The notes below the pieces were generated by a model. That model searched no databases, had not been told where the DNA came from, and saw only the letters and a list, made by a program, of their open reading frames with translations. This document shows positions 19,868 through 22,800 of a stretch of DNA of 64,000 nt, in pieces (position 1 is the stretch's first letter; each line of letters starts with the position of its first letter). The position numbers and the translations under genes are program-made. The stretch comes from Marchantia polymorpha subsp. ruderalis (lineage: Eukaryota > Streptophyta > Marchantiopsida > Marchantiales > Marchantiaceae), in contig AP031351.1 of the NCBI GenBank assembly GCA_037833965.1, positions 25,060,501-25,124,500 on the forward strand, written 5' to 3'.

Positions 19868-22800
19868 TCATGGTTGTCGAAGACCAGTTGTACGACTCAG
19901 GATCTCCTGTTCCTTTAAGTGACGTTGAAACCTCGTGAGTCGAGCCTGGAGATTAACAATTCCTGCCGCTTTCCGAGAAAGTACATAATTCAGTTGAGAC
20001 ACGTAGCGGTCTATTCGGCTGCCAGGGCGATCGACTTCTGCAAGAAGTTTCATTTCCTGCACGAGACGAAGATACATACATGAGCCTTCCTTTTTTTAGA
20101 GCAAATACTCTTTGCTCTATAAGCCTACCTCCCCACATATTTTGCTTTTATCTTCTCAGAACGGGTAAAAGATTCCATGCGATGTCGTTGGCAGAAGAGA
20201 CGGATCACGACCCCAAGGATATGGACAATCCATTCGAAATCAAAAGTAACTGTTGACTCTTCTTAGAAATCTTTGAAGAAGGGTCAGCAGTTCTTGCTTA
20301 TGGACAATCACTTCGTAATTTCGTCCTCGAAATTTTGTCCAGCCCATTTCCATCTTTGCTATCTAAGAAAGGTGAGGCCGAAGATTGAACAAACAAGCAA
20401 AATTAGTTGGGGAGAAAAACATCATATCTAAGGAACAGCAACTTCGAATCGGTGCTAAGCTTCACTGTACCTCGCGCACGATTTCCATAGTGTCCTCCAC
20501 TTCCTTTCGATGTGCAGATATGACTTCCTCCTCTTCCTGGACACTCAAGAAAGACCAAGAATGAGATCTAAAATCAAAAGACAAAATATGAAAATACGCT
20601 CCACTCTCAAACAATCAAGATGCACAAGACATCTCGAATCAGGTAATAGTATGTCGCAAAATCGTATGTTCATGTAATAACACAAACCTCGAGTATCGCA
20701 TTGATATGCCCATCATAACCTGTTTGGATAGACTCCAGTTCACTGTCCGTTTCTTTCATCGCGTACTGTGAAGCATTCATGCTGAGTTCATCCTTCGGGT
20801 TACTTCTCCTCTGGTATCCATTCATGGAATCGGCTCTTGAAAGTTCTTCTTTAACTTGAACGCTATTTCTGTCAGATTTATCTTCCCTGGTACCCTTCCT
20901 TCGTGAAGGTAAGACGAGCTGATGTCTTTCTTGCTCTAGACTATCATTACCCCCAGGTGCTGACATGTCCCGCAGATTTCCGATTCCACTGTCCATATTG
21001 TCTCTGAAGTTCATTCTATCCTTCTCACTAGCCACGGAGGTCATTCTGCTCTCATCTCTTCCGGAGAACCCAGAAGTTATTCTGCTCTCCTGCTCTCTTC
21101 CAGGAAAACCAGAGTTCATTCTGCCCTCCTGTTCCCGACTAGGAAATCCGGAGTTCATTCTACTTTCTTGGTCTCGTCCTTGGTAGCCAGAGGTCATTCT
21201 GCTCTCCTGCTCTCGGCCTTGAAATCCGGAGGACATTCGGCTCTCCTGCTCTCGCCCTTGGAAGCTAGAGTTCATTCTGTTTTCCTGCTCTCGCCCTTGA
21301 AAGTTGGAGTTCATTCTGCCCTCCTGTTCTCTCCCTTGGAAACCTGAGGTCATTCTGCTATCTTGCTCTCTTCCTTGAAAACCCGAATTCATTCTGCTGT
21401 CTTGATCTCTTCCTTGGAAAGTGGGAATCCTGTTTTCCTCTCGTCCTTGATACGAGGGGATCCGGTTCTCCTCTCTTCCCTGAAACGAGGTATTCCTGCT
21501 CTCTTCTCTTCCTTGGAAGGATGGAATCCTGTTTTCCTCCCGTCCCTGGAAATTAGATGGCATTCTGTTCTCCTCTCTTCCTTGAAAGCCTGAGGGCAAT
21601 CTACTCTCCTCTCTGCCGGAGAAACCAGAGTTCATTCCTCTATCTTCTCTCCCTTGAAAGTTTGAGTTCATACCCCTCTCCTCTCTTCCTGAAAAGCTTG
21701 AGTTCATTCTGCTCTCTTCTCTACCAGAATAAGTATACTCTCCCACAGAAAGACCTTCACGTTCTGCCATCTGGTTCTGCCACATGAACCTTTCTGACCC
21801 TCTGCTTTCCTGCTGAAATTCCTGCACCTGCTGAGGAGGTGGTTGTACAGTTGGAGCTGGAGGTGGAGAGTTATTAGTCTCCCTCTGAGCTGTGGGAGCT
21901 GTAACCGTCGTTGTCTCCCTTTTGGAACTCCCGCTTTTAGAAAGTCCCTTGACTCTGCGTAAACGGAAATCAAGTTACGATCTCCTGCTGCAAGTCTCAA
22001 GACTGGCTCATTTGACCTCCTAACCCATGAAAGGAGGAAATAGGCGTTTTCACCACTAACCAGGGCTGTAGGTCATATCACAACCCAATATTTTCTTGCT
22101 AAGAACGTGGCAGGTACAACGTAAAACTTAGCTGCCAGCATGTCATACCTGTCAGCGTATCTGAGGGTATTCAGGGTATGTTCGCAGGAGCCGGCATTTG
22201 GAGAAATACACGAAATCATGACGGTCCTTGAGTCTCCAACAAAGGAATCTCGAAGCACCTCGGTAAGCTTACTTCCTCGGAAGGGTATGTGGCCCTGATC
22301 GTTGTCGAGGGCTCTGATGCACTCCTTCAAAGCTAGCAAACTCTTGTTAATCTCAGCTCCTTCCATCCTGTTGCCCCCAGTAAGCAAAACGTTATTCACT
22401 GAAAATTTCAGAAGCCTGTTTCTCAACCTCCCTAATACCGTGCATTAAAGCCCTTATCAAGACTTCAATGACCTACAATGCACCAGGACAGATATCGTAG
22501 AAGCCGTGTATAAAGTACCTCGTTTGGCGATCATTATCAGTTGTGTCTGCTCCACGTTCACTTCCGGCTAAATCAATAAATGAAAGCTTTCCCTGTGGAC
22601 GAGCCGCTGCTTTAGCGTCACTACCATCTGGACTTTTTTTAATAACTAGTTGAAGTATGGCATGGGAACGTGATGACTCTTCGTTTGCTCCAGTTGAACC
22701 AGTGCTCCTTGAAGCATTCCCCTTATCTATGTACTCTTTCACGAGTTGTACATCTGATACGCGGTATTCTTTGAGACCGACAATGCATACTTGTTGTCGA

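Follow-up and report, generated by a model that had tools for sequence, protein, structure and literature searches.

A selectively constrained array of nineteen short tandem units in the linker of a predicted kinesin-13 of Marchantia polymorpha

Kinesin-13s have been described in another bryophyte, Physcomitrella, which has three, and plant members of the family lack the Lys-rich neck of animal kinesin-13s; the available text of that source makes no mention of a repeat array in the Physcomitrella proteins (PMC3472504). Arabidopsis kinesin-13A is brought to microtubule ends via MIDD1, according to the accessible part of the report (PMC9065968). Tandem repeats are also found in the K39-type kinesin of Leishmania, a different kinesin. 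The protein analysed here belongs to the same family as the Physcomitrella kinesin-13s and carries 19 tandem units between its motor and its C-terminal region. In the available portions of the literature found on kinesin-13 in Marchantia or Physcomitrella, or on tandem repeats in Marchantia kinesins, this array is unreported.

A predicted kinesin-13 gene with a long linker

The coding part of the gene lies at 19868..27852 of the window (the whole 64,000-nucleotide stretch that was analysed), on the minus strand, as do all parts of the gene given below. Its 12 exons, read in the order 27852 to 19868 and picked by hand, guided partly by a provisional Arabidopsis protein sequence, join into 3,093 bases encoding 1,030 residues with no internal stop. 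Ten introns have GT-AG borders and one, after exon 6, is GC-AG (GC donor at 23762-23763). The model leaves out one possible exon, the open stretch at about 25158-25283 that separates exon 2 from exon 3 in part. Exon 10 (20688..21954, 1,267 nt) encodes the end of the motor and the linker with the array, up to the C-terminal region, which continues in exon 11 (20471..20536) and in exon 12 (19868..20056), where the stop codon lies.

A Pfam search detected the Kinesin motor (PF00225) in two exons, with E-values of 1.3e-29 and 8.6e-25, and the PDB sequences that matched one motor exon with an E-value no higher than 1e-20 were three, all of them kinesin-13s (two Klp10A, and KIF2/KIF2A). The joined protein has KVD in loop 2, which we take to be the kinesin-13 motif, and its motor is internal, with N-terminal and C-terminal regions on either side. 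We identify the predicted gene as encoding a kinesin-13; depolymerase activity is predicted from family membership. The first-pass annotation had placed the array in the linker between a kinesin-13 motor and the conserved C-terminal helix, and in the joined protein it lies between the motor and the C-terminal region.

Arabidopsis KIN-13A is 794 aa long. Against a provisional sequence of it (KIN13A, presumably AT3G16630), 493 of 782 aligned residues are identical to the Marchantia protein. Placement of the latter in KIN-13A rather than KIN-13B is putative, the plant sequences aligned with it all being provisional. The linker is 421 aa long in Marchantia compared with 189 aa in the provisional Arabidopsis sequence, which has no array and at most a short array-like segment in its linker.

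Searched against the genome, one motor exon gave a single match at 1e-5 (14 best candidates scored), the other gave at least 24 matches at E 1, the best besides itself being 43% identical (best candidates scored), and the last exon (19868..20056) matched only itself at E 0.1 (best candidates scored). No second kinesin-13 was detected in the genome among the best candidates scored in the motor-exon searches, and on this sequence evidence the genome seems to have no kinesin-13 gene but this one. Viral contigs searched for relatives of motor exon 9 yielded nine pattern matches and no relative; prokaryote genome contigs yielded 52 pattern matches and one relative, on a contig that stops inside the matched exon, before the linker. 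A kinesin piece on a contig labelled Verrucomicrobiaceae MAG (L011, 3145-3297), with 82% identity to query residues 1-51, is probably eukaryotic contamination.

Elsewhere in the window, a perfect inverted repeat (17665-17716, 25-base arms with 2 bases between them) lies about 2.1 kb past the kinesin stop codon, and an open frame at 5778-7130 (minus strand) carries a PP-loop ATP_bind_3 domain (PF01171, E 1.9e-36). Two adjoining long open frames of 731 and 220 aa at 45231-48086 (minus strand) gave no Pfam match at 0.001, and a 15-base tandem repeat lies within that region at 46479-46529.

Architecture of the array

The array occupies 21033..21731, as defined by the unit rule [FY]-x-[GS]-R-[ED], and spans aa 599-831, that is 233 aa of the 1,030-aa protein, close to the 230 or so added residues estimated initially. 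The 19 units of 11-13 residues proposed in the first-pass annotation were recovered by the unit rule, and the Tandem Repeats Finder blocks agree closely; the start at 21033 stands, and the end given there, 21728, had to be moved, since the Tyr codon of unit 1 reaches 21731. By the unit rule, units 1-5 (21552..21731) have 12 aa each, units 6-9 (21420..21551) have 11 aa each, units 10-18 (21069..21419) have 13 aa each and an additional Gln at position 6, and unit 19 (21033..21068) has 12 aa. Tandem Repeats Finder reported periods of 39 (21070-21420), 33 (21406-21587) and 36 (21569-21722), with limits near those of the unit blocks. All unit lengths are whole codons and the frame is open across exon 10. 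The ordering of lengths makes four runs, and four or fewer runs occurred in none of 200,000 shuffles; the blocks of equal length seen at first (12, then 11, then 13) are therefore non-random.

The unit consensus is roughly F-Q-G-R-E-(Q)-E-x-R-[MIL]-x-S. Five positions are kept in all 19 units ([FY]1, Arg4, [ED]5, [ED]7 and [ST]12), Gly3 is present in 18 and Arg9 in 17. Throughout the array there are 38 Arg and no Lys, 38 acidic residues and 19 aromatics, which gives a net charge of 0 at a charged fraction of 0.33. Leishmania K39 repeats are longer than these units and are not known to be related to them. A single-sequence AlphaFold2 model, which is weak evidence for disorder, gave the array a pLDDT of about 40 without regular structure (the input was a 434-residue open frame that begins and ends with some residues of intron origin, mean pLDDT 44.8); the array is probably disordered, as had been supposed. 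The array exon had no Pfam match over cut-off, the only hit being DUF4847 with an E-value of 0.16, and it matched nothing among PDB sequences at E 10. A genome search with the unit consensus placed seven of eight matches inside the array and the eighth at E 0.42 (best candidates scored), and no second array was detected elsewhere in the genome among the candidates scored in this search. The array is real and, as a protein feature, unusual; the motor that carries it is of a known kind.

Divergence and constraint among the units

Synonymous and non-synonymous changes were compared over the 171 unit pairs, as the first-pass annotation had suggested, with gap and stop codons skipped and gaps within units placed by hand. 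This gave a pS of 0.696, a pN of 0.194 and a ratio of 0.28 (column bootstrap 0.16-0.44), and such high pS with low pN points to constraint on the protein. In the shifted frames of the array pN/pS was 1.27 and 1.61; the constraint is specific to the frame, consistent with the earlier claim that the duplications kept the frame. The ratio was 0.11 at seven core columns, selected once the units had been seen, and 0.58 at the remaining columns, whilst by block it was 0.41 in units 1-5, the least constrained, 0.12 in units 6-9 and 0.19 in units 10-18.

Units that agree in a residue also agree in its codon in 0.476 of 1,255 cases. A null drawn from the pooled codon usage of the array gave 0.473, with 136 of 300 draws as high as observed, and one drawn from the rest of the gene gave 0.385, with none of 300 draws reaching 0.476; both split Ser and replaced an earlier null that pooled the six Ser codons (0.358; 0/500 reach observed). 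The array-pooled null absorbs part of the ancestral codon bias, and some of this bias remains, because the rest-of-gene null is only 0.385 and the Gln codons differ by position (11 of 13 are CAA at position 2, and six of nine are CAG at position 6). Synonymous sites are near saturation. Ser codons are fixed by column, all ten at position 8 being AGY and all 18 at position 12 TCN, and this column-fixed codon class speaks for common descent of the units.

Adjacent units share codons at a rate of 0.477, equal to that of shuffled order (0.477), and units within one length block at 0.492 compared with 0.476 overall. Several rounds of local duplication had been proposed; the non-random length blocks look like this, but nothing marks the duplications as recent, the codons of neighbours and block mates being hardly more alike. 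Taken together, the high synonymous divergence, the lack of a codon excess between neighbours and the low pN make the array look old and without recent homogenisation, and its units look to be under purifying selection as a set. Selection against DNA repetition could mimic the apparent age.

Possible origin and function of the array

The linker after the array (20688..21032) aligns to the array better than its shuffles do (3/1000 as good, in a long gapped alignment) and possibly consists of decayed units. The linker before the array showed no excess over shuffles (248/1000 as good), nor did three N-terminal controls (734, 657 and 864 of 1000). For provisional KIN-13A linker sequences, 32/1000 shuffles were as good for Arabidopsis and 15/1000 for rice, and the same linkers contain SGIP and SMIP, respectively. 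Descent of the array from an ancestral KIN-13A linker motif is weakly suggested by these alignments, as a lead only.

We lean towards the array being a putative multivalent array of a short linear motif of some kind. A short motif would have been amplified in frame, presumably long ago, and purifying selection on its residues since then would have kept the units as a set. The array would act as a docking region in which evenly spaced aromatic and Arg stickers make many weak contacts with a putative partner, and these contacts, when summed, would hold the depolymerase at its place of action. Within this reading, regulation by phosphorylation is a tentative proposal: the motif R-x-[NTPS]-[ST] is present in 17 of 19 units, and R-x-x-[ST] sites number 21 in the 233-aa array compared with eight in the other 797 aa, which suggests candidate sites for graded phosphorylation. 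A basophilic kinase would shift the net charge stepwise from zero to strongly negative, thus releasing the depolymerase, and the array may in this way tune microtubule-end targeting. A hydrophobic residue at -5 of such a site is, however, often preferred by basophilic kinases, and here that position is Glu or Asp in all 19 units, which counts against a basophilic kinase switch. A broader scenario, in which an ancestral land-plant KIN-13A linker motif was amplified about 19-fold in liverworts and long held unhomogenised as a graded multivalent phospho-switch on the single kinesin-13 of the lineage, is improbable in our estimation.

That the segment is an intron or unexpressed can hardly be credited, as the constraint is specific to the frame and linker continues on both sides in the same frame; a donor scan limited to GTRAG, GTATG and GTACG found sites in exon 10 only at 21673, 21028 and 20766, with none upstream of the array. 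A neutral, recently slipped and still churning repeat would account for length blocks that resemble local duplication and for the slightly greater likeness of neighbouring DNA (identity of whole units 0.73 at lag 1 versus about 0.68-0.70 at lags 5-12), but it is very improbable given the high synonymous divergence, the codons without neighbour excess and the constrained protein; recent slippage was disfavoured on the high pS between units. An entropic spacer, where the array does no more than lengthen the tether joining the motor to the C-terminal region and any disordered polyampholyte sequence would serve, would be compatible with the unstructured AlphaFold2 model, with zero net charge at a charged fraction of 0.33 and with unit lengths that range from 11 to 13. 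It would need neither a pN/pS of 0.28 overall and 0.11 at core columns, nor Arg without Lys, nor Ser/Thr12 in 19 of 19 units, and we consider it unlikely. The first-pass annotation had offered, among its readings, a flexible spacer and a multivalent microtubule or partner binding array; a pure spacer is less likely with residues so constrained, and of microtubule binding it is the purely electrostatic version that is less likely, as the net charge is zero.

A further explanation, quite unlikely in our view, is that the units bind EB1, having arisen from an SxIP-like motif in the linker of plant KIN-13A, recruiting the depolymerase to growing microtubule ends. SRLP in unit 4 fits [ST]x[IL]P exactly, as no other site in the protein does, x-R-[ILM]-P occurs in five of 19 units, the provisional Arabidopsis and rice linkers have their SGIP and SMIP, and the EB1 Pfam domain, 41 positions long, scored over cut-off at two loci, with 23 and 25 positions covered. 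SxIP motifs lie mostly within disordered regions, which would suit the array, yet positive charge following the motif aids EB1 binding, according to the available text of the source (PMC12695022), and the charge of the array is balanced. The motif itself fits one of 19 units, Pro is absent from 14, and Ser-rich linkers readily give rise to motifs of this kind, one being found also in a rice N-terminal control.

For plant kinesin-13s and their dependence on recruitment, a regulated multivalent linker would fit. Slippage and exchange often keep the DNA of tandem arrays alike; in this one the peptide was mostly kept in 19 units while the codons drifted until they were almost random, a pattern that points to selection acting on the repeat as protein. 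As this seems to be the only kinesin-13 gene of a tractable model plant, changing the array could directly test how a disordered multivalent tail serves a microtubule depolymerase.
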